Shown in pieces: positions 1 to 19,853 of a DNA stretch of 23,472 bases. Origin of the DNA: a virus; IMG/VR virus record IMGVR_UViG_3300041409_000331, positions 1 through 23,472 of that record; one strand, 5' to 3'. The position numbers and the translations under genes were made by a program. Every line of letters starts with the position of its first letter. The first letter of the stretch is position 1. The notes under the pieces were generated by a model. It saw only the letters and a list, made by a program, of their open reading frames with translations, ran no database searches and had not been told where the DNA came from.

Positions 1-464
1 ATCAGTTCTTCGGGAACGAGGAAACCGCCGGCGCTGTCGACGCCTTCGCCCTGCGCCTTGTTGATCGGAACGCCGCGCGACTTGCACCAATCCTTGGCCT
101 CGGCGTTGTCCAGGATGGTTGCCTTGAACCACATGCCGGCAGTGTACGCCTGGTCGACGGCGCGAACGGTTTTGCCCTCGATCTCGCGGTCGCGGAAGTG
201 CTTGATGGTCCCGAACAGCTTGTGGGCGCTCGGGGGCGCGAACGGCGTCAGCCGGTCTTGGCCGGGAACGGGAGTCGCGAGGTTACGGGCGATTGCCTCT
301 GCCTCTTCGACGCGGCCAAGCTGCTTGTTGATGTCGATGAAGGTTTCCTTCATCGCATCGAAAATGTCCTGCTTGAACCCTTCGTCTTCGGATTTGCCTG
401 CCATGGCCTCGATTTCATCGGCCAATTTAGCAAGCTTCTGCTTGATCTCGTGTTTCTTGCTCAT
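1..464 (-). CDS. HK97-family major capsid protein, N-terminal part (cut by window edge)
   Basis: About 154 N-terminal residues of a phage major capsid protein; the rest lies beyond base 1. It begins MSKKHEIKQKLAKLADEIEA at an ATG at 464. Residues 1-55 are charged and heptad-like, as expected for the delta (scaffold) domain that the prohead protease removes in HK97-type heads. Residues about 100-154 hold the conserved segment before and at the N-arm, ending DSAGGFLVPEEL, which is the hallmark start of the mature capsid fold. This segment is clearly homologous to the gene at 3087-4145 (WCKSRG/WCKANG, then GGFLVP in both). It lies downstream of the protease gene, the usual order protease then capsid. 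Family assignment is strong. Whether the downstream part is intact cannot be seen. Confidence 0.88.
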   Translation of the reverse strand, partial: MSKKHEIKQKLAKLADEIEAMAGKSEDEGFKQDIFDAMKETFIDINKQLGRVEEAEAIARNLATPVPGQDRLTPFAPPSAHKLFGTIKHFRDREIEGKTVRAVDQAYTAGMWFKATILDNAEAKDWCKSRGVPINKAQGEGVDSAGGFLVPEEL

Positions 465-546
465 CGCTATGTTTCCATATGTTCGCTGGTGCGCTGCCCG
501 GGCGCGGGGGATGGGCGGTATTGCCAGCGACGCGATGCGCGGCCCG

Positions 547-566
547 CGCCGGTTGCTCTACCGGCG
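547..566 (-). other. Hairpin between protease and capsid genes
   Basis: A perfect 7-bp stem (CGCCGGT/ACCGGCG) with a 6-nt loop lies in the 132-bp gap between the protease stop (597) and the capsid start (464). There is no T-run after it in the direction of transcription, so it is not a classic terminator. It may process or stabilise the capsid mRNA. The stem is read directly; the role is a guess. Confidence 0.4.
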
Positions 567-596
567 GCGGTCAGTCACAATTTTCGAAAGACAGAT

Positions 597-1904
597 TTAG
601 ATTTTGACGGAAGCCTTTAGGGCTTTCGCCTCTTCAATGCGCTGTTCGCGCGCAGTGAGGGTAATCACAGCAACCGGCGGCGGATCATCTGCGGCGGGGT
701 CTTGGTCGTTGTCGCCGTCAGGATCGTCAGCAGCGTTGCTGTCCTGTACCTGCTTAATGCAAGCGCCCATGGACTCGTGATGTTCCATTGCCTTTGCGAG
801 TAGCGCCGCGTTGGCGCTGCTGATCTTGCGTCCAGCCTTTTCTACGGCCGGAACAATCGTTTCGGTACTGACGGTCTTCTGCTCGTACTCGTCGGCAATT
901 CCTTTGGCCTCGTCGCGCACGGCTTCGGGTGCGTCGGACTGATCGATGCGGCTCTTGGCCGCGACAACGCCGGATTTGATGGCCTTCAGTTCCCCGCCGA
1001 CAATATCGGCGAACGGAAGCTTGTAACTCGAGCGCAGGACCGGGTTGGCCGCATCGTGAATGAGGAAGCCGCGGGCCGCTTTGGCGAAATCGGGAGCATC
1101 TCCATCGAAGCCGGCATCATCCAGCATTCTCTTAGCTGCGGCGGCACCGTCCCACGCATCGCAATCCGCGAGCGGCAAATCATCCAGCGCGCCGACTTTC
1201 CAGTCCGCTACTTCGGATTTTGCCAGATACTTCTGCCTCACCGTGCGCGGCGTCTTGGCCTGGCGGAAGGTCTCCTCGAGAAGAGACCTCGGAACCAGAA
1301 CCTTGCCTTCGCCATCAAGTAACCGCTGCGCCCATTCGGAGATCGGTCCAGTGTCAATACCGGCGGAACGCGCGTCGATCAACGCGTTGGGATTGCACGG
1401 GATCGGACACAGACTTACTTCCAAAAGGATTTGCTTGATAAAGTCCAACCCCGATTGCCGCTTTTTGTCCTTAGAAAATTCCCACTCGGTTGGGATGAAT
1501 CCCACCGAAACGGCATTCAGGAATTTGCCACGGACCATCTTCGCAAGCGTCGCCGCGAACGGATAGATGTCTTCTGTTACGAATTCGAGGTCGCCCTTAA
1601 GTTTGCCGGCGAGGACGCCCATGTTCTTCCATCGGCCTATGGGCGGCATGGACGAATCATGGCACCAAAGGCCGATCGCGTTCTTTTCCTCAAACTCTTT
1701 CAGATTCGTCCAGCCCGACTGCTTAATTACGTCGCCGGAATGATCCGTACTCTCGTCACTGCAGGTGAACCGAAATACGTTCGGATTGTCTCCATCGACC
1801 TGAGCGGGCTCGCCAGACATTGCCCGCAAAATGCGGCAATCGGGCTGAGCGCCATCCTTGGCGGCGATCCTGAAGGCGTCCGCAGTCAAGAGTTCGATCG
1901 ACAT
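597..1904 (-). CDS. Prohead (head maturation) protease, S78/HK97 gp4 family, with long C-terminal extension
   Basis: A 435-residue serine protease that would cleave the capsid delta domain during procapsid maturation. The catalytic domain covers about residues 40-180. A WCHDSS motif supplies the candidate catalytic His82, AVSVGF supplies Ser133, and the LLEVSLCPIPCNPNA block (about 160-174) is the family signature. HK97 gp4 is about 225 residues, so roughly 200 residues are extra. The tail (about 385-410) is very acidic (DDPDGDNDQDP) and ends in a lysine-rich helix. The extension could serve as an internal scaffold; that is inference. The start ATG at 1904 has a GAGG ribosome site 6 bases upstream. 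It follows the GIY-YIG gene by 12 bp and precedes the full-type capsid gene. Confidence 0.9.
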   Translation of the reverse strand: MSIELLTADAFRIAAKDGAQPDCRILRAMSGEPAQVDGDNPNVFRFTCSDESTDHSGDVIKQSGWTNLKEFEEKNAIGLWCHDSSMPPIGRWKNMGVLAGKLKGDLEFVTEDIYPFAATLAKMVRGKFLNAVSVGFIPTEWEFSKDKKRQSGLDFIKQILLEVSLCPIPCNPNALIDARSAGIDTGPISEWAQRLLDGEGKVLVPRSLLEETFRQAKTPRTVRQKYLAKSEVADWKVGALDDLPLADCDAWDGAAAAKRMLDDAGFDGDAPDFAKAARGFLIHDAANPVLRSSYKLPFADIVGGELKAIKSGVVAAKSRIDQSDAPEAVRDEAKGIADEYEQKTVSTETIVPAVEKAGRKISSANAALLAKAMEHHESMGACIKQVQDSNAADDPDGDNDQDPAADDPPPVAVITLTAREQRIEEAKALKASVKI

Positions 1905-1916
1905 TGAAACCTCATT

Positions 1917-2936
1917 TTAATGCACGCGGGAATAAGTTGACCCGCGAAGAAGGCGCCTTACGCGCTCAGAGCTGCAGACAAATCGCTCTGCGATTTTTTC
2001 GATAGACCAACCAAAATCAGCGAGCAGTCGTGCCTCGCGGACTTGCTCTAAATCCAGGTTGTTCGGATTCCCGCAAATCCTCGACGCTGCGAATTCGTCG
2101 CTGCGCCACATCGCGGCGAGCCATGGATTTGGTTTTCCCTCTCGCGCCGCGCGCTTAATGGCCTGCCTTACTAAGGCGCTTCGATGCTCCATCTGGCGCG
2201 GACCGATGTTTTTCAGTCCAAGCTTATGAAGATATCGAATTCCGGCGAAACCTCCCGGAATCATGTTGAGGCCATTGGCCCTCATCGGATAAAGGCTAAG
2301 TTGGTCGACCAGCCTCCCTTCCAAATCCATCGCCACTTCATACGACAGACCGAGCCCCAAAACGCTATGAACCTCAGTGACGTTTGATCGCCTCAACGCC
2401 TCATGAAAGAGGTAGGGACTTCCAGATTTAGCAGCGTTAAGATGTTGCCTATATCGAGGTCCCCAGCCCTTTCTGGTGATTCCGACATAATTTTTTGGAG
2501 GACTAATCCCGTCATAAAGGCAATGGTGATAGACGGTATATGTCCCCTCCAGGGAAGCTATGTCGGACAGTATTGCTCCGAGAGGGGCAACGCTGCGAAA
2601 CTTGGTCTGACCGGACGCATCCAACTTAGAGAACTTAAATCTAGGAATTCCATCATCATTGTCTCCGTCGAAGCCATGCTTCACGGCGAATCTGTTGTTT
2701 GCATTACGCCGAGGCTCCGGAAACGCTACCATCATCAGGTGAGGGACCTTAATTATTGCCTTAGCCAGAGAAACGTTTCCGCGATCCAGCATATGCTGAA
2801 GCGCGCCAATTAATTCATTGCTTGCAGGATAGTCGGCAAGAGCGGCATCGACGGCGGCTGCAACGCTGCCTCGCATTTTCCCGATACGTTCGATGCCAAG
2901 AAGATACTCGGTATTTTCCGGACTACATTTCAGCAT
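1917..2936 (-). CDS. GIY-YIG homing-type endonuclease with C-terminal helix-turn-helix
   Basis: A GIY-YIG nuclease that would nick or cut DNA, most likely a free-standing homing endonuclease. From the ATG at 2936 (339 residues), the nuclease core is near residues 125-240: YTVYHH and YVGIT are the paired GIY and YIG strands, followed by RYRQH (catalytic Arg region), a LEGRLVDQL helix (catalytic Glu) and GLNMIPGG. The last 60 residues read as a helix-turn-helix (WSIEKIAERF, SSERVRRLL), a usual DNA-binding module in this class. The first 120 residues are not recognised. The 2936 start is preferred because GGAG lies 9 bases before it; in-frame GTG/ATG codons at 2969, 2957 and 2951 are alternatives. 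The gene looks more AT-rich than its neighbours and sits between two capsid-module genes, as mobile nucleases do. Confidence 0.8.
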   Translation of the reverse strand: MLKCSPENTEYLLGIERIGKMRGSVAAAVDAALADYPASNELIGALQHMLDRGNVSLAKAIIKVPHLMMVAFPEPRRNANNRFAVKHGFDGDNDDGIPRFKFSKLDASGQTKFRSVAPLGAILSDIASLEGTYTVYHHCLYDGISPPKNYVGITRKGWGPRYRQHLNAAKSGSPYLFHEALRRSNVTEVHSVLGLGLSYEVAMDLEGRLVDQLSLYPMRANGLNMIPGGFAGIRYLHKLGLKNIGPRQMEHRSALVRQAIKRAAREGKPNPWLAAMWRSDEFAASRICGNPNNLDLEQVREARLLADFGWSIEKIAERFVCSSERVRRLLRGSTYSRVH

Positions 2937-3013
2937 TTTTGTAATCTCCATCGACATCGGGCCATCCACGCCCGCGCGATAATGAGGGTCCGCCGTTAGG
3001 CAGAACCCGACAC

Positions 3014-3038
3014 CGATGGAGAAGTGAAACCTCCATCG
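3014..3038 (-). other. Hairpin after the short capsid gene
   Basis: A perfect 8-bp inverted repeat (CGATGGAG/CTCCATCG) with a 9-nt loop lies in the 150-bp gap between the short capsid gene and the GIY-YIG gene. No T-run follows. It could be a weak terminator, a processing site, or a scar of the nuclease insertion. Only the stem is certain. Confidence 0.4.
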
Positions 3039-3086
3039 CGCTTCATCCCCGTGGATGCAGGGAATTTGCTTTCGATTTTTGAAAGA

Positions 3087-4145
3087 CTACGGAGCGACCA
3101 ACGCGGCCAACGCGCCGAAATTGTTGGAGTCGCCCAGATCGTGAACGACTGTATGGAACCGCTCGGTGCCGAGCACCGCGATCAGATCTTGATCCAGGTA
3201 ACGTTGATCCGAACGCGCCAGCGTCAGGCCACGGCGCTGGCCCAGCGCGCCGCCGAGATACATATCCCCGAAAGCCAACATGGTCTTGCCGGTCAGTGTG
3301 GTGCTGATCAGCGGTAGCTTTTGCGTGAGGATCACCGGGAAGCCGAGATAGTGCGGCGTCATGACACCGTCGCTCTCGGCCATCGGGAGATAACCTGTGC
3401 CGCCGGCGAGGCGGCAGAAGGTCTGAGCGAACGCTGTTTGCGAGCAGTACCACGCCGAATTCGGAATTGCCGCGGCGCGCACCGAGCCAACCAGGTTTGC
3501 GAGGTCGGTCGAGTCAAGCGTCAGGAACGTGTTGTGTCCAGATGCAGCAACGACCTTGGCTTTGCTGTGATTGCCATCGAGCACGATCGAGCCGATGCCG
3601 CGCATCCGCCCGTAGGTTGACGTACCGTCACCGTTGAACGCGCAATCGTCTTCCTTTGCCGCGAAGGCAAATCCGATTTCGTTGGCGATGAAATCGACCA
3701 CATCGACGATCGAGTCTTCTTCAAGCTCGCTCGAAATCTGAATGAGAGACCCGATCTTCTTGGCCGTCAGGCTGATCTGATCGACGTTCGTCCCGGTGTC
3801 GGCTGACGCCGATGCTCCCTCTCCGATAAAGGATGCTCCGGTTCCGCCAGGGCGGCGCGGAACAGACGTACTGTCGGACGCCATCGGAACGATGCGAGCC
3901 CGGCGCCGGAACGCGCCATAGCTATCCCGAATATCGAGGATGGCGGTCGCCAGATCGGTGGGCACGAGGAACCCGCCGCTTGAATCGATCGTCTCTCCTG
4001 CGGCCTTGACGAGCCGGACGCCATTGGCCTTACACCAGGACGCGGCCTTCTCGTTCTGATAGATCGCAGCAAGCAGCCACTGCCCGGCGCGCTGATAACG
4101 CGCCTCGGTCTCGGAACCGCCCCCCGGAAATGCACGACGTCGCAT
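3087..4145 (-). CDS. Second HK97-fold capsid protein, lacking the delta domain
   Basis: A 352-residue homologue of HK97 gp5. The start of the mature fold is near residue 54 (SSGGFLVPTDLA), followed by E-loop and P-domain regions such as KKIGSLIQISSELEEDS, FNGDGTSTYGRMRGI, and a C-terminal DLIAVLGTERFHTVVHD block. It differs from the capsid gene at 1-464 in having only about 50 residues before GGFLVP, with no long coiled delta domain. The ATG at 4145 shares its A with the portal stop (TGATG) and has AGGAG 7 bases upstream; a TTG one codon earlier is less likely. It sits where the protease normally follows the portal. It could be a minor or vertex capsid protein, an alternative capsid, or a leftover duplicate. 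The family call is strong; the role is open. Confidence 0.85.
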   Translation of the reverse strand: MRRRAFPGGGSETEARYQRAGQWLLAAIYQNEKAASWCKANGVRLVKAAGETIDSSGGFLVPTDLATAILDIRDSYGAFRRRARIVPMASDSTSVPRRPGGTGASFIGEGASASADTGTNVDQISLTAKKIGSLIQISSELEEDSIVDVVDFIANEIGFAFAAKEDDCAFNGDGTSTYGRMRGIGSIVLDGNHSKAKVVAASGHNTFLTLDSTDLANLVGSVRAAAIPNSAWYCSQTAFAQTFCRLAGGTGYLPMAESDGVMTPHYLGFPVILTQKLPLISTTLTGKTMLAFGDMYLGGALGQRRGLTLARSDQRYLDQDLIAVLGTERFHTVVHDLGDSNNFGALAALVAP

Positions 4146-5530
4146 CAATCGTCTCCTGATTCTCTCGGCACTTCGGGTAATTCGGGGGCGCCTGTATTCT
4201 GCACGAAGGCGCTTTGCTCACTCACGATGTATGGAGCAATCACCTTGCTCGGCGCGCCGGGATCCGGAACTGTTCCAGCATCAGGCCGGCCCGCCCCGTC
4301 CGGCGCTGTGCCGCTCATGTCCGAACCGCTCGCCGCAAGATTGACTGGCGTCAAAAGAACGTCGCCACCAGGAAGCGGCGGGTCGCCATTCTCGGCGCGG
4401 CACTCGTTTTGCGTCGAGATACCGGACATGATCTTGAGACGCTGATTGTTGATGCGCGTCGCTTCCGCGGCGCGGAGCAGCCGGCGCTCATCAAAGTCCG
4501 CAACAAGTTTTTCCTTATCGAGATCGAACTTCTGAATGAACTTCTGTTCCCACGCATCCAGGTCCGGCATGATCGTGGTGTTGACGTAGGCCTGGTCCGC
4601 GTCGTCGAACTTCAGGCGCGACATCTCACCTTTGACGCCGAGCTTGTAGAGCGGCATATCGAACCAGCGCGCGATATCGGCGATGGAGAATTCCCGCTGG
4701 GCAATAAACTCGAGGTCAACCGAACTGAGCTGCATCGGCGTCCACTTGAGACCCTCCTCAAGGATGGCCGTGCGCCCTGCGTTCTGAATTCCTGACCTTA
4801 GCTGCTCCCATTGAGTGCGAAGACGCGTCGCGGCAGGCTCAGAAAGCAGCTTGTCGGTCTGCAGCACGCCGCTGGGGCGCGCGCCGTTGTTCATAAATCG
4901 TGCGGCTTGTTGCTCAAGCCCCATCGCGACGCCGAACGAGTCCCGCGCGATTGAGATGCGCGACAGACCAAGCAGCATATTGAAGCCGATGTCCCGAAGA
5001 TGAAACATATCATCCTCCGGAATCATCAGGGGTTGCCCCCTGAGAATAGCGTTTAGAAAAACACCATTCCTTGCGACAGAATAGAAAAGCGATCCATCGG
5101 TGGCTTCGTACAGAAACACGAGGTCCGGGTTAATCGGAATGAGCGCGGTGGGATTTCCTCGGCCATCGCGCATGATAACTGCGAACGCATTACCGCGAAG
5201 TAAGTACGCGGCGTGCATTTGCCGGCACCACTCGGTCCAGGTTTGCCAAGCATTCGGACGCTTGAACAACCGAGCAACCGGATGATCGACGATAGGTTTC
5301 TCAGCCCTCGCGCTATTCTCGCGCATTAGCCTCGGAATGCACCGAGCAACGTCTTTCGACCGGATCGAGGCGCACGCGTAGACCGTCGATATGCTGACGG
5401 CCGTCGATTGTGTGATAGACAATCCAGTGGCGGATCCAACGCCTCCAAGCAGCGGGAGAAGTCCGGAATCGCCACTAGCTTTTTCGACCGAGCCGCCAAG
5501 TACGCGGCGGGTCCAGTCGACCAGGCCCAT
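4145..5530 (-). CDS. Phage portal protein, HK97 family
   Basis: A 461-residue portal protein, the dodecameric ring at one capsid vertex through which DNA enters and leaves. Family features: the early STVYACASIRSKDVA helix, the LRGNAFAVIMRD strand, a central IPEDDMFHLRDIG...GLSRI block and the late DIARWFDMPLYKLG segment. Length matches the HK97-type family (about 400-460). The last 60 residues are Gly/Pro/Asp-rich and probably disordered. The start ATG at 5530 has AAGGA 7 bases upstream and follows TerL by 10 bp; the stop overlaps the next gene as TGATG. Confident on family from sequence pattern and gene order. Confidence 0.92.
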   Translation of the reverse strand: MGLVDWTRRVLGGSVEKASGDSGLLPLLGGVGSATGLSITQSTAVSISTVYACASIRSKDVARCIPRLMRENSARAEKPIVDHPVARLFKRPNAWQTWTEWCRQMHAAYLLRGNAFAVIMRDGRGNPTALIPINPDLVFLYEATDGSLFYSVARNGVFLNAILRGQPLMIPEDDMFHLRDIGFNMLLGLSRISIARDSFGVAMGLEQQAARFMNNGARPSGVLQTDKLLSEPAATRLRTQWEQLRSGIQNAGRTAILEEGLKWTPMQLSSVDLEFIAQREFSIADIARWFDMPLYKLGVKGEMSRLKFDDADQAYVNTTIMPDLDAWEQKFIQKFDLDKEKLVADFDERRLLRAAEATRINNQRLKIMSGISTQNECRAENGDPPLPGGDVLLTPVNLAASGSDMSGTAPDGAGRPDAGTVPDPGAPSKVIAPYIVSEQSAFVQNTGAPELPEVPRESGDD

Positions 5531-5540
5531 TATGGATTCC

Positions 5541-7226
5541 TTAGACCATCAACATTGGTCTTGTTTCGTAGACCGAAGGGCCATTGATCGGCGTCGGGTT
5601 TAGCGACATTTCAGCGACAGCATCGAAGCCCGCCATAAGAGGGTCTACCTTGCCGTAACCGGAAGCGTCGCGCGCTATGCGCATTCCCGTTCCTGTCGCC
5701 TGTACGATCGCGTTGCCAGCGCACCACGCCATCATGCGGCGACCGCCATGCTTGAAACTTCCATCGGCGAGCTTGCGCTCCACCGTCTTGATGGCGCCCA
5801 TCAGGGCAACGCCCTGGCGCACGCCAACGAGCAATTCGTTTTCTTGCGTCACACCGATCGCGACCAGGCCGTCAACAATCGTTCCTATGCCTGCAGGGTC
5901 AGCGCCGACCTTCGCCAGCTTGCCGGAGTCGAGGCATTGCTTGACGATATCGACAACGGCCGTGACGTCATCCGGCAATCGCTCGACCAGGGTTAGATCG
6001 CCGTCCTTGATGAAATCTTCGTAAAGCGTCCGGTTCGCCTTGCGGCGCTCCCAGCCTTCGGGAGAGATGAAGGCGTGGGCCCAACCGAGCCAGATCCCAG
6101 TTCCTTTTTCTCGACCCAACACAAACGCGCCAAGAAGATCGTCAAGTCCGCCACCGTCCAAGCCGACCGTGATAACTTCGGAGCGGCGGATGACCTCGGC
6201 GAGCGTCAACCCCTTCTCGTTTCCTCGAGGCCAGAGCGTGGCGCCGGCCCAGCCATCAGAGCGGAGCGCTTGGTCGACCTCCACGTTAAAATGCTGCGAG
6301 GCAATCAGGGCCATCTGTGCGGGCCCGTCCTGCTCAGCCTTCGCGATCTCGTTGCCGAGGAACTTCTCGTTCGTGGACCGGCCAAGGTTCGGATTAACAA
6401 GCGGCCAGTATTTTCGCTCTTTCCAGCCGCCATCTTTCGATACGCTGACGGGCAGTTCATAAAGCACAGGCAGCAGTGGAAGCTTTATCTTTCCATCGCG
6501 CACCGCGCGCGCCATATCCAATTCCGACTTGAACACGCCAGACGGCGGGGTCTTGGATTGCGTCGTGGTCTGGAATAGGAACCCATCGGGGCGCTTGGTC
6601 AGCGCGCCGCGGAGCTCGACGAAGATTTCCTTTGCGTTCGACCTTTTCGCGAAGACGTGGGTTTCATCGATCATTGTCCCGCCGGCCTTGGAGCCGGTGA
6701 TGACGTCGGTATCGGCGGCCTTGATCTGCAGCGTGGCGCCGGAGCGCCGGTGCGTTACCTTCCGGACGTGGTCCTGGATCTGGAACAGTTTATCCAGATC
6801 GGCGTCAAGTCGGATGGTGCCCTTCGCCTGCTTAAAGGCGATGGTGGCGATTTCGATCGTGGGCGCGATGAAGAGGAATTCGTTCTCCGGCCGCCTATTC
6901 AATATCGTCGCAGCTACCATTACGGCGCCGCCGTTCGAACTCTTGCTGTTCCCCTTCGGGATGAGCTCGAAAATCTCCTGGATCATTCGGACGTTATTGA
7001 TCGGATCATAGGATCCGAACAGCGCCGCAACGATCGGGAAAAACCATTCCCCGCACGCCTCGGCCATCGTCGGCGTGCCGATCACGTCGGGAAGCTTGAG
7101 CCGCTTAAATACCCTCAGGGCCCTGTCGGCCTCTGCCTGGAACAGCGGCAAGTCAGGAACGAGGGACCGACCTGAAAGGATCCGGTCTTCCCAATCCGGA
7201 CACGAGAGGTCCCAATCATCGTCCAT
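5541..7226 (-). CDS. terL: Terminase large subunit
   Basis: A 561-residue packaging motor: an N-terminal ATPase drives DNA into the prohead and a C-terminal RNase H-fold nuclease cuts the concatemer. The ATPase shows a variant Walker A (PKGNSKSS, about 90-97), Walker B (GGTMIDETH, Asp187/Glu188) and a coupling motif (FLFQTTTQS, about 217-225). The nuclease domain begins near VGLDGGGLDD (Asp357), with later acidic candidates in KVGADPAG and DPLMAGFDA. Length and order match HK97-type (Terminase_1) large subunits. The ATG at 7226 overlaps the TerS stop as TGATG, as expected for coupled subunits. Confidence 0.94.
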   Translation of the reverse strand: MDDDWDLSCPDWEDRILSGRSLVPDLPLFQAEADRALRVFKRLKLPDVIGTPTMAEACGEWFFPIVAALFGSYDPINNVRMIQEIFELIPKGNSKSSNGGAVMVAATILNRRPENEFLFIAPTIEIATIAFKQAKGTIRLDADLDKLFQIQDHVRKVTHRRSGATLQIKAADTDVITGSKAGGTMIDETHVFAKRSNAKEIFVELRGALTKRPDGFLFQTTTQSKTPPSGVFKSELDMARAVRDGKIKLPLLPVLYELPVSVSKDGGWKERKYWPLVNPNLGRSTNEKFLGNEIAKAEQDGPAQMALIASQHFNVEVDQALRSDGWAGATLWPRGNEKGLTLAEVIRRSEVITVGLDGGGLDDLLGAFVLGREKGTGIWLGWAHAFISPEGWERRKANRTLYEDFIKDGDLTLVERLPDDVTAVVDIVKQCLDSGKLAKVGADPAGIGTIVDGLVAIGVTQENELLVGVRQGVALMGAIKTVERKLADGSFKHGGRRMMAWCAGNAIVQATGTGMRIARDASGYGKVDPLMAGFDAVAEMSLNPTPINGPSVYETRPMLMV

Positions 7227-7807
7227 CAGTTTGGTCGGCCAACAACGCCCGTGTCGAGGTCGTCACCCCAGCCCGTACCCTGGCCGGCGGTCTTGGCGTC
7301 GTCCTCGGCCTGTTCCTTTTTGCCGGGCGCCGCGTCGTTCAGTTTCGCAAGCGCGGTCGCCAGGTAGTTCGCGGTCTTGGACCGCGTTTCGTGGTCCAGC
7401 ACCTTCAGCAGCTTGGCGCGCACCGTGGCGTCTTTCTCGCCGTTCACATAATCGGCTACCATATCGGCGATCGTCTGGTGGTTGCGGTTCAGGAACTCCA
7501 GCTCATCCATCAGGTCCAGGAGAATGTTCCGGCCGCGGGCCGTGAGCACCTTTACCGGGGTCGACGCGATGTCGCGGGCCACTGCCTCGGTTCGGTTCGG
7601 CGTCGGTTCGCGCTCTGGTTTGCACTCAGGTTCGCGGGGCGGCTGGTTCGCATCGGGCCGGGCCCAACCGCGCTTCTTGGCTTCCTTCCGGATGGCCGTG
7701 TCGGAAAGCCCGTGACGCTTCGCTAACGCCCTTATCGAAAGGGTTTCGTTGCAATAGGCATCCCCAATTTGAATCCAGTCCGTAGAATTTCCTTCTCCTG
7801 TTCGCAC
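7226..7807 (-). CDS. Probable terminase small subunit
   Basis: A protein of about 193 residues directly before TerL, the usual place for the DNA-recognition subunit of the terminase. The N-terminal third has a helix-turn-helix (SIRALAKRHGLSDTAIRKEA). The middle is Pro/Glu-rich, then helices (DLMDELEFLNR, then VRAKLLKVLDHETRSKTANY) that would form the oligomer core. No ATG is available. The GTG at 7807 is preferred because GAGGG lies 11 bases upstream; the frame is open back to a TTG at 7825. The assignment rests on position, HTH and size, not on a sequence signature. Confidence 0.75.
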   Translation of the reverse strand: MRTGEGNSTDWIQIGDAYCNETLSIRALAKRHGLSDTAIRKEAKKRGWARPDANQPPREPECKPEREPTPNRTEAVARDIASTPVKVLTARGRNILLDLMDELEFLNRNHQTIADMVADYVNGEKDATVRAKLLKVLDHETRSKTANYLATALAKLNDAAPGKKEQAEDDAKTAGQGTGWGDDLDTGVVGRPN

Positions 7808-7853
7808 TGTAGTTCGCACCCTCAAATTCGCTATAAACCCAAAAATTCTGTCT

Positions 7854-10031: not shown

Positions 10032-10462
10032 TGCTTGATCTCCGATTTATTTTGCGCGCGAATACTGGTCGCGACAACGCGGTGGAACCCTTCCACAAAA
10101 ATCACGCTTTCCGGGTATTCATTTCCATAGAACGCCTTACACATAGCCTCAGTTGGCTCGCGATGAATGACAACGAATCCAGCCTCCCGAAGGGCGGCAA
10201 TCTGATCCAGCGATAGGATTTCCAGCGCACTTTTTGTTTCCGCGATGAGTCTGCGTGCTGGTGGGCCGCCCTCCGATTCCTTGAAGCGCTCAAGGTACTG
10301 CAACACGGCGCGCAAGTGCATGGCCAGCGCTGCGTCATCAATCTGATCTGACTTCCAATATTCGAAAGCCGACTCGATTAGATCGCGCGCTGTTCCATCG
10401 TCTTGAGATTTGGCAAATTCATCCCGAGCCGCCTCAAGCGGAAGATCGCAATTCAGCGTCAT
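10028..10462 (-). CDS. Unknown phage protein with REPTEAM motif
   Basis: A 144-residue protein. The C-terminal part VVIHREPTEAMCKAFYG resembles the REPTEAM-containing segment found in many small phage proteins of unknown function. The first 90 residues are helical (DLIESAFEYWKSDQIDDAAL). Coupled by ATGA to the NusG-like gene before it and to the 87-residue gene after it. No function assigned. Confidence 0.6.
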   Translation of the reverse strand: MTLNCDLPLEAARDEFAKSQDDGTARDLIESAFEYWKSDQIDDAALAMHLRAVLQYLERFKESEGGPPARRLIAETKSALEILSLDQIAALREAGFVVIHREPTEAMCKAFYGNEYPESVIFVEGFHRVVATSIRAQNKSEIKQ

Positions 10463-11088
10463 GCTGCAACAACCATGTCGGCGGGAAGCGAGGTCCGGAT
10501 CATTCCCAACAATATCTCAATTCGGCCCTTGCTGTCGATCTTGTCGATGGTCGCCACGAGGCCCGCATAGGCCCCGCCGTCCTCGTCCACACGCACCTGA
10601 TCGCCGCGCTTCCATGCCGTACCGCGGCGCCCTCCGACCTCCTGTAGCCACTTCTGGTGCTCCTGGAGTTGCTTTTGGAACACCGCCCACACCGCGGCGT
10701 GCGGCAGCTTGACTGGGTTGCCGGCCACATCGAGCATGAAATCTCGGACGCCCCTGACATCCTTGATCGCGTCGTAATCTCGAATCCCGGTGATCCGCAG
10801 GAACCCGTACCCTGGGAACATCGGCTTCGCGATGACGCGGGTTACCTTGTGGCCGTTCTTTCCGATGCGGCCGGTCTTGACGCGCCTCCGGATCACCGGG
10901 ACGAACATCTCGAGCCCGAGCTCGTGCAGGCGCCACACCGTCGTCAGATCCTGTTGCGGTTCGGTCAGCATCACGAACCACGCCGCCGGGTCGCCTGAGA
11001 GCACCGGTACTGGCGGGGCCGGTAGAACGATGTCGACGAACTCCACGAAGTCGCCGATCTTCAATTCCTTCAAATCAACGGCCTGCAT
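10459..11088 (-). CDS. NusG/RfaH-like transcription antitermination factor
   Basis: A 209-residue NusG paralogue. An NGN domain covers about residues 36-125: AAWFVMLTEPQQ is the usual first strand, then LGLEMFVPVIRR and KPMFPGYGFLRI, the segment conserved in NusG and RfaH. A KOW-type domain covers about 160-209 (RGDQVRVDEDGGAYAGLVATI). NusG proteins bind RNA polymerase by the NGN domain and extend or pause transcription; specialised paralogues act on chosen operons. The ATG at 11088 has GAGGGA 7 bases upstream and removes a non-conserved 100-residue extension of the open frame. It heads a coupled four-gene unit ending just before the structured late leader, suggesting control of late genes. 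Domain call is strong; target is inferred. Confidence 0.87.
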   Translation of the reverse strand: MQAVDLKELKIGDFVEFVDIVLPAPPVPVLSGDPAAWFVMLTEPQQDLTTVWRLHELGLEMFVPVIRRRVKTGRIGKNGHKVTRVIAKPMFPGYGFLRITGIRDYDAIKDVRGVRDFMLDVAGNPVKLPHAAVWAVFQKQLQEHQKWLQEVGGRRGTAWKRGDQVRVDEDGGAYAGLVATIDKIDSKGRIEILLGMIRTSLPADMVVAA

Positions 11089-11126
11089 TTGCGTATCCCT
11101 CGATTGAACTCTGGTTTTGTGATGCG

Positions 11127-11147
11127 CGGCCCGGATACGCGGGGCCG
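11127..11147 (-). other. GC hairpin upstream of the NusG-like gene
   Basis: A 6-bp perfect stem (CGGCCC/GGGCCG) with a 9-nt loop lies in the 67-bp gap before the NusG-like gene. No T-run follows. It could be an attenuator or pause site controlling that gene; only the stem is directly seen. Confidence 0.35.
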
Positions 11148-11155
11148 TCAGCGGT

Positions 11156-11344
11156 TTACGAATCCAGCAAGTTTTCCGCGCCAAGAAAGTCGTCAATCTC
11201 CAGAATATTCCTTGAAACGTCGACCAGTCGAATAGCCTCATGGAATCTTCGCAACTCGCCGTCTGATAGCTTGCGATCGAATATAACCAGCAGCGCCTGT
11301 TCGTTGTCGGCCACTCTGCCAACACCATGTAACCTCGGTGCCAT
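11156..11344 (-). CDS. Unknown small protein before the NusG-like gene
   Basis: A 62-residue protein from the ATG at 11344, which is preceded by a purine-rich GGGAGAGAG ribosome site. The frame stays open to a TTG at 11428, but the upstream part has no good start. Sequence: a strand (EQALLVIFDRKL), a helix (DGELRRFHEAIRLVD) and an acidic end. Not recognised. Confidence 0.5.
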   Translation of the reverse strand: MAPRLHGVGRVADNEQALLVIFDRKLSDGELRRFHEAIRLVDVSRNILEIDDFLGAENLLDS

Positions 11345-11368
11345 CTTCTCTCTCCCGTCCGCTCTAAA

Positions 11369-11397
11369 ATAATTCCACCCACCCGGAACAAATCCAA
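11369..11397 (-). promoter_or_regulatory. Possible sigma-70-type promoter for the antiterminator unit
   Basis: On the minus strand TTGGAT (11392-11397) and AATTAT (11369-11374) are separated by 17 bp, and transcription would begin about 18 bp before the 62-residue gene. The match is moderate, and alphaproteobacterial promoters vary, so this is tentative. Confidence 0.3.
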
Positions 11398-18774: not shown

Positions 18775-19302
18775 TTACGCCGCCACCGCGATCTTCGGCG
18801 CCATGGCGGGCGCAATCCATCCCTTGGGCGGCTGTAATCTGAGGCGGTGGTGACGGCACCAGGACGTTTCGGAATCGACGGGATGTGCGCAGTATGTCGC
18901 GTTCGCCAGATCATCATTTGTGATGAACCGGCACTCGACCGGACGCCCGTCTTTCATCGTCAGGTCGGCGAGCGTGAGGTTCAACGGCTCCCGGTATTCC
19001 ATTGTCTTTGTCTCCGCATAGGGCTGTGAAGTGATGAAGACACGGAGTCTGTAAGTGATCGGACGCTCACGCTTGCGCTCGTACAGCTTCTGTCTGGCGC
19101 GCCGCTTTTCGATCTGCGCCTGGATTTCTTCCGGGGTCGGAGGCGCTTTAGCTCGCGTCCAACCGAGGCGACTGGCCTTGCCGATCACCGTGTTGCGGGT
19201 GACGCCCATCTCGGCAGCGATCTTGCTGGCGGAAAGCCCGCGATCCCAGAGCGCCTTGAGGTGTTGAACTTTGGCGTCGGGCCATGCTCCGATATGAAAC
19301 AT
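18775..19302 (-). CDS. GcrA-family cell-cycle regulator homologue
   Basis: A 175-residue GcrA homologue. GcrA in Caulobacter binds sigma-70 RNA polymerase at methylated GANTC promoters and drives S-phase genes. The N-terminal HTH (about 7-48) reads WPDAKVQHLKALWDRGLSAS, then KIAAEMGVTRNTVIGKASRL. The C-terminal part (about 123-160) has the family cysteine/histidine set, CRFI...YCAHP...WCRHHRLRL, which contacts sigma in GcrA. The middle is a long basic helix (EIQAQIEKRRARQKLYERKR). Length matches chromosomal GcrA. It overlaps the DnaA-like gene as TAATG. It could redirect host polymerase to phage genes. Confidence 0.88.
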   Translation of the reverse strand: MFHIGAWPDAKVQHLKALWDRGLSASKIAAEMGVTRNTVIGKASRLGWTRAKAPPTPEEIQAQIEKRRARQKLYERKRERPITYRLRVFITSQPYAETKTMEYREPLNLTLADLTMKDGRPVECRFITNDDLANATYCAHPVDSETSWCRHHRLRLQPPKGWIAPAMAPKIAVAA

Positions 19303-19853
19303 TAGGCCGCCCTCTTCGCCTTGAGGATGTCCATCATCGTTTCGATATCGTCGGCTAGTTCGTCGTCGGCCTCGATGAGCCGGGCGATTTTGTTGATGGA
19401 GAAGAGAACCGTCGTGTGATCTCTTCCGAACGCCCTGCCGATCTGCGGGAGCGACTTAACCGTCAACATTTTCGTCAGATAGACCGCGATATGGCGGGGA
19501 AGCACGACGTCTTTGGTGCGCCGAGCCGAGAGAAGGTCGCGGCGCGTGACCTTGGGATATCTCGCGAGGACAACCCGCTGGATTGTTTCAACGCGAAGCT
19601 CTTTCTCAATCTCGAATTCGATCCAGAACCAGGGTTTCTTGGGCGGGGGCGCGGCCTCGACTACGGCGGCGGGTTTAGGTAGCGGGTTAATGGCGGACGG
19701 CGGCCCGCGAAGCGTCTTGTCCACCGGAGCGATCGGGGGTGCCTCGATCGTGTGCCCCTCAAATCGCGCCTGGCGCGCCCGCCTCTCATCCGCGTATTTG
19801 ATCTGGGATGGCACCGCATTTGCGCGCGCGTCGTGGATTGCAGAATTATGCAT
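19302..19853 (-). CDS. Stand-alone DnaA domain IV-like DNA-binding protein
   Basis: A 183-residue protein whose C-terminal part (about 88-165) matches the DnaA DNA-binding domain: VTRRDLLSARRTKDVVLPRH, IAVYLTKMLTVKSLPQIGRA, FGRDHTTVLFSINKI. GRDHTTV is the DnaA-box recognition signature. The AAA+ ATPase domain of DnaA is absent; the first 85 residues are basic or Pro/Ala-rich and look disordered. It could bind the phage origin, or block or titrate host DnaA boxes. The ATG at 19853 has AGGA 5 bases upstream. It is co-directional with and coupled to the GcrA gene. Small DnaA-domain proteins occur in other phages; the function here is not proven. Confidence 0.87.
   Translation of the reverse strand: MHNSAIHDARANAVPSQIKYADERRARQARFEGHTIEAPPIAPVDKTLRGPPSAINPLPKPAAVVEAAPPPKKPWFWIEFEIEKELRVETIQRVVLARYPKVTRRDLLSARRTKDVVLPRHIAVYLTKMLTVKSLPQIGRAFGRDHTTVLFSINKIARLIEADDELADDIETMMDILKAKRAA

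Follow-up and report, generated by a model that had tools for sequence, protein, structure and literature searches.

A lineage of uncultured phages carries two related shell proteins, a full-length one and a shortened one without most of the scaffold part, kept side by side for a long evolutionary time. This suggests that the shell is built from two specialised bricks, an arrangement so far documented only for phage T4. The genes were studied in a window of 23,472 bases, which is the whole of the IMG/VR virus record IMGVR_UViG_3300041409_000331. A sequence-only reading of this DNA had claimed that two HK97-fold capsid paralogues lie in one head module, flanking a protease and a mobile nuclease, with the short one directly after the portal. 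Our analyses confirm this observation, with one correction to the extent of the missing domain. The head module consists of the following features.

7226..7825, minus strand: terminase small subunit (PHROG 1206, 6.9e-22)
5541..7226, minus strand: terminase large subunit (PHROG 9, 3.5e-96)
4145..5530, minus strand: portal protein (PF04860, 2.9e-79)
4143..4157, minus strand: TGATG overlap of the portal stop and the capS start, with an AGGAG Shine-Dalgarno motif at 4153-4157, seven bases upstream of capS
3087..4145, minus strand: capS, the short capsid paralogue, 352 aa, without the coiled-coil part of the delta domain; proposed low-copy (vertex) subunit (PF05065 Phage_capsid, 1.3e-33; PHROG 10 major head protein)
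1917..2969, minus strand: GIY-YIG-like homing endonuclease gene, inserted between capS and the protease (PHROG 314, 5.9e-9)
597..1904, minus strand: S78-family prohead protease, 435 aa, with a long C-terminal extension (PF04586, 4.9e-6; PHROG 80 head maturation protease, 1.2e-20)
3..464, minus strand: capL, 5' part (154 of 437 aa), the delta (scaffold) domain and start of the major capsid protein, cut by the window end (PHROG 10, 1.9e-9)

The complete capL gene was found in a near-identical contig, L002 (11501-12814, 437 aa), which carries a 100% identical capS, and it matches PF05065 at 4e-44. Both proteins score above the curated cut-off of this family (capS 117 bits, capL 151 bits, cut-off 24.2). 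An alignment of the two full proteins, which had been proposed as a check, shows that they are 42% identical over 333 residues (E 6e-94). The shared segment up to GGFLVP is 25/46 identical (E 4e-15), and the profiles align from end to end apart from the N-terminus. An AlphaFold model of capS (pLDDT 79) has a predicted HK97 fold. The 50 best structural matches are phage, gene transfer agent (GTA) and satellite capsids or encapsulins (Z 14-19), and the best of these reaches 18.8. The model of capL was too poor to use (pLDDT 54), therefore the surfaces of the two proteins could not be compared. However, capL residues 2-22 and 32-62 are predicted to be helical at pLDDT about 67-83. With the neighbouring S78-type protease gene, this fits the HK97-type self-scaffolded head.

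The short protein had been described as having no delta domain. This is not entirely correct. CapS begins at a motif, (K/R)AF-G, that lies inside the C-terminal part of the delta region of single-capsid relatives, for example LKAFTGEGAEERAYRVGQWLKG in L104, one of these relatives, against RRAFPGGGSETEARYQRAGQWLLA here. CapS has therefore lost roughly the first 90 residues, the coiled-coil part, but keeps the last helices (~45 residues) and the conserved K-A...E-G...GGFLVP stretch. That both paralogues keep this stretch makes cleavage of both by the S78 protease plausible. It is only a candidate site, as removal of the delta domain was not measured here and we found no direct support for a K-A cleavage site in the gene transfer agent papers that we read. 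The TGATG overlap suggests that capS is translationally coupled to the portal, and an SD-like motif of 4-5 bases precedes all 30 capS genes examined.

Whether relatives keep both genes had been named in advance as a test of the sequence-only reading. Scans of IMG/VR with capS and capL, and profile searches of all the resulting loci, gave 40 contigs with both genes, some of them cut inside one of the two. Eight capS-only and four capL-only contigs are each truncated where the other gene should be. Near-copies are among the 40, and the trees used 27 to 28 distinct capS sequences. The order portal, capS, protease, capL is constant except in the contig L082, where capS lies behind capL and the next gene. 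A second contig, L088, seemed to have lost capS, but it shows a capS start in that same relocated place at its contig end. Furthermore, twelve long dual records of 30 to 98 kb hold exactly two capsid matches, and three single-type records exactly one. Nearly all of these relatives are from metagenomes, although one contig (IMGVR_UViG_2927473223_000001) seems, by its name, to come from an isolate genome. No host is known: a search for hosts or prophages in 84,980 species genomes returned nothing with either query, although this method needs exact short motifs and could miss distant members. Among cultured phages and plasmids there was no close relative of either protein, with no listed match above 28% identity.

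In trees that include single-capsid relatives, capS and capL each form one clade. With the nearest singles (L104, L105, L147 and L148) they meet in an unresolved three-way node. The duplication therefore precedes the radiation of this group, but its date relative to these nearest singles was not resolved, as the tests reject neither order. Relaxed selection on one copy, together with virions that hold only the other protein, had been named as what would refute the sequence-only reading, and we find nothing to suggest relaxed selection. The median pairwise omega is about 0.22 for capS and 0.19 for capL, and never above 0.65. These values are rough, because dS is near saturation and base composition is skewed. 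CapS changes about 1.5 times faster than capL at non-synonymous sites. Among 18 positions that separate the two clades, the single-capsid relatives agree with capL at 8 and with capS at 4, so both copies have changed. Distances of capS and capL are correlated across genomes (r 0.42), but we did not use this as evidence because shared ancestry gives it too.

The two genes also differ in codon adaptation, measured as the share of C in two-fold T/C codons. CapL (0.78) and the gene after it (0.78) have the strongest adaptation of the module, while capS (0.63) is at the level of the portal (0.64) and the protease (0.65). Over the homologous core capL exceeds capS in 20 of 20 loci (p 9e-5), although two of these, L020 and L021, are near-copies. 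Codon usage is an indirect proxy for dose. That said, the capsid gene exceeds the portal in 31 of 34 single-capsid relatives, so the measure tracks a high-copy protein, and in T4 it separates gp23 (0.55) from gp24 (0.31) and the portal (0.19). This argues that capS is a low-copy protein, although the SD motifs before capS are not weaker than those before capL. The conserved gene after capL (L002 12875-13363, 162 aa, PHROG 5707, unknown function) is likely to encode an abundant head decoration protein.

The homing endonuclease gene is present only in the window and L002 and is absent from the other relatives. Other lineages have different nuclease genes in the same gap, an HNH in L081 (7554-8519) and an HNH plus a GHKL-type ATPase in L096 (5242-7479). 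This gap, which has taken different nuclease genes in at least three lineages, is an insertion hot spot inside the head operon, paralleled by the GIY-YIG gene segD between T4 genes 23 and 24. In L010, several open frames lie between portal and capS (2131-5186), one with ITEADDTLA-like repeats, and the two that were tested have no Pfam match. A methyltransferase/glycosyltransferase-like gene in the head module (L002 13466-14620) has matches at the same place even in distant single-capsid relatives, and may modify head proteins. In a further relative, L107, a single 744-aa frame (770-3001) joins an S78 protease and a capsid protein, a natural fusion. The window also carries a CI-like S24 repressor, so this phage is probably temperate, as well as a protein with the DNA-binding C-terminal domain of DnaA (19302-19853) and a NusG-like protein that is possibly an antiterminator (10459-11397).

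The explanation that we favour, with somewhat better than even confidence, is that the phage builds its shell from two HK97-fold paralogues with different duties. In this view capL is the major, high-copy protein that nucleates the prohead around its built-in scaffold and fills the hexamers. CapS, made in small amounts and without the coiled-coil half of the delta domain, could not drive assembly by itself but, as a protein that keeps the whole HK97 core, would fit the lattice, most likely forming the pentamers at the eleven non-portal vertices (55 copies). The S78 protease would then trim both proteins at the shared stretch before GGFLVP. Our analyses demonstrate the paralogy, the intact frames, the joint retention in all relatives that can be checked, the old duplication, the purifying selection, the point of truncation and the low codon adaptation of capS. 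In contrast, its low copy number, its cleavage, its presence in the virion and its vertex position are inferences, as no virion data exist for any member and vertex occupancy was not observed. Against this reading, the 18 separating positions are spread over the protein, with no clear concentration at the A-domain contacts where T4 gp24-bypass mutations lie. The sequence-only reading had offered a vertex protein, a mixed lattice or a duplicate on the way out. Its interpretation of two paralogues in one head module is supported; of these three options the first is favoured by the codon usage, the short propeptide and the T4 precedent, the second is possible and the third is contradicted.

A mixed lattice, where capS and capL co-assemble in the same capsomers and capS dilutes the delta scaffold or tunes shell size and stability, is the strongest of the alternatives, though we consider it unlikely. 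The 42% identity is high enough to allow it, the core is fully retained, and hetero-pentamers of variable composition are reported for the two-component encapsulin of S. lydicus (PMC12407261). However, the portal-like codon usage of capS means that it is probably not made in capL-like amounts, and the old, clean separation of two clades without mixing suggests distinct sites. Less likely still, capS may form or line the capsomers that surround the portal, or help portal incorporation at initiation. The gene order, the overlap with the portal and the codon usage are consistent with this, but L082 and L088 keep capS after it has moved away from the portal, and no phage with such a capsid paralogue is known to us.

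A role outside the mature shell, for example as an assembly chaperone or protease cofactor, or in alternative small heads, is about as doubtful. It is permitted by the absence of virion proteomics, but the complete HK97 fold is conserved in capS, including the regions that make lattice contacts. The idea of a redundant duplicate or relic can be all but dismissed. Only the faster change of capS speaks for it, while no loss is seen in any contig that spans the site, the frames are intact, omega is low and the gene is kept even after relocation.

The closest known system is the gp23/gp24 pair of phage T4. There too, two HK97-fold paralogues lie in one head operon, the major protein is strongly codon-adapted and the other is not, and the vertex protein gp24 has the shorter propeptide, 10 against 65 residues (PMC9958956). 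However, capS works like gp24 in our reading but is not a member of its family: the T4 pair belongs to PF07068 and capS matches PF05065 only, and a profile comparison of capS with gp24 gives a probability of just 0.2%. T4 uses a separate scaffold, whereas here the scaffold is the delta domain of capL. The T4 paralogues are about 17-20% identical (PMC9958956, PMC12407261), and gene 24 lies after gene 23, while capS lies before the protease. HK97-type phages such as HK97 itself (gp5) and the single-capsid relatives L104, L105, L147 and L148 share the family and the order of portal, S78-type protease and delta-domain capsid, with the nearest relatives at about 45-52% identity, but have one capsid gene only, so that one protein must make both hexamers and pentamers. 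The capsid of the Rhodobacter capsulatus gene transfer agent (6tb9) is the closest solved structure to capS by sequence (E 3e-15) and by fold (Z 18.8), and is likewise a single protein for hexamers and pentamers (PMC7296036). Two-component Family 2B encapsulins also have two co-operating HK97-fold shell paralogues, but these are cellular compartments with about 70% identity between the paralogues, hetero-pentamers of variable composition and a CBD domain inserted in the E-loop (PMC12407261). No such insertion or CBD match was found in capS or capL.

A 2025 paper names T4 as the single virus with two HK97-fold proteins in separate roles (PMC12407261), and our literature searches, limited to open papers, found no other example. 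The evidence allows for a second, independent origin of a two-protein HK97 shell, which we regard as slightly more probable than not. In a phage lineage with genomes of about 60 kb, the self-scaffolding capsid gene would have been duplicated, one copy would have lost its scaffold half, and the two would have divided hexamer and pentamer duties. A second lineage of independent origin, with closer paralogues (42%), a built-in scaffold and single-capsid sister phages still extant, would make the division of labour between hexamers and pentamers directly testable: which changes let one protein give up the pentamers, and whether a subunit without the scaffold half is enough to close vertices.
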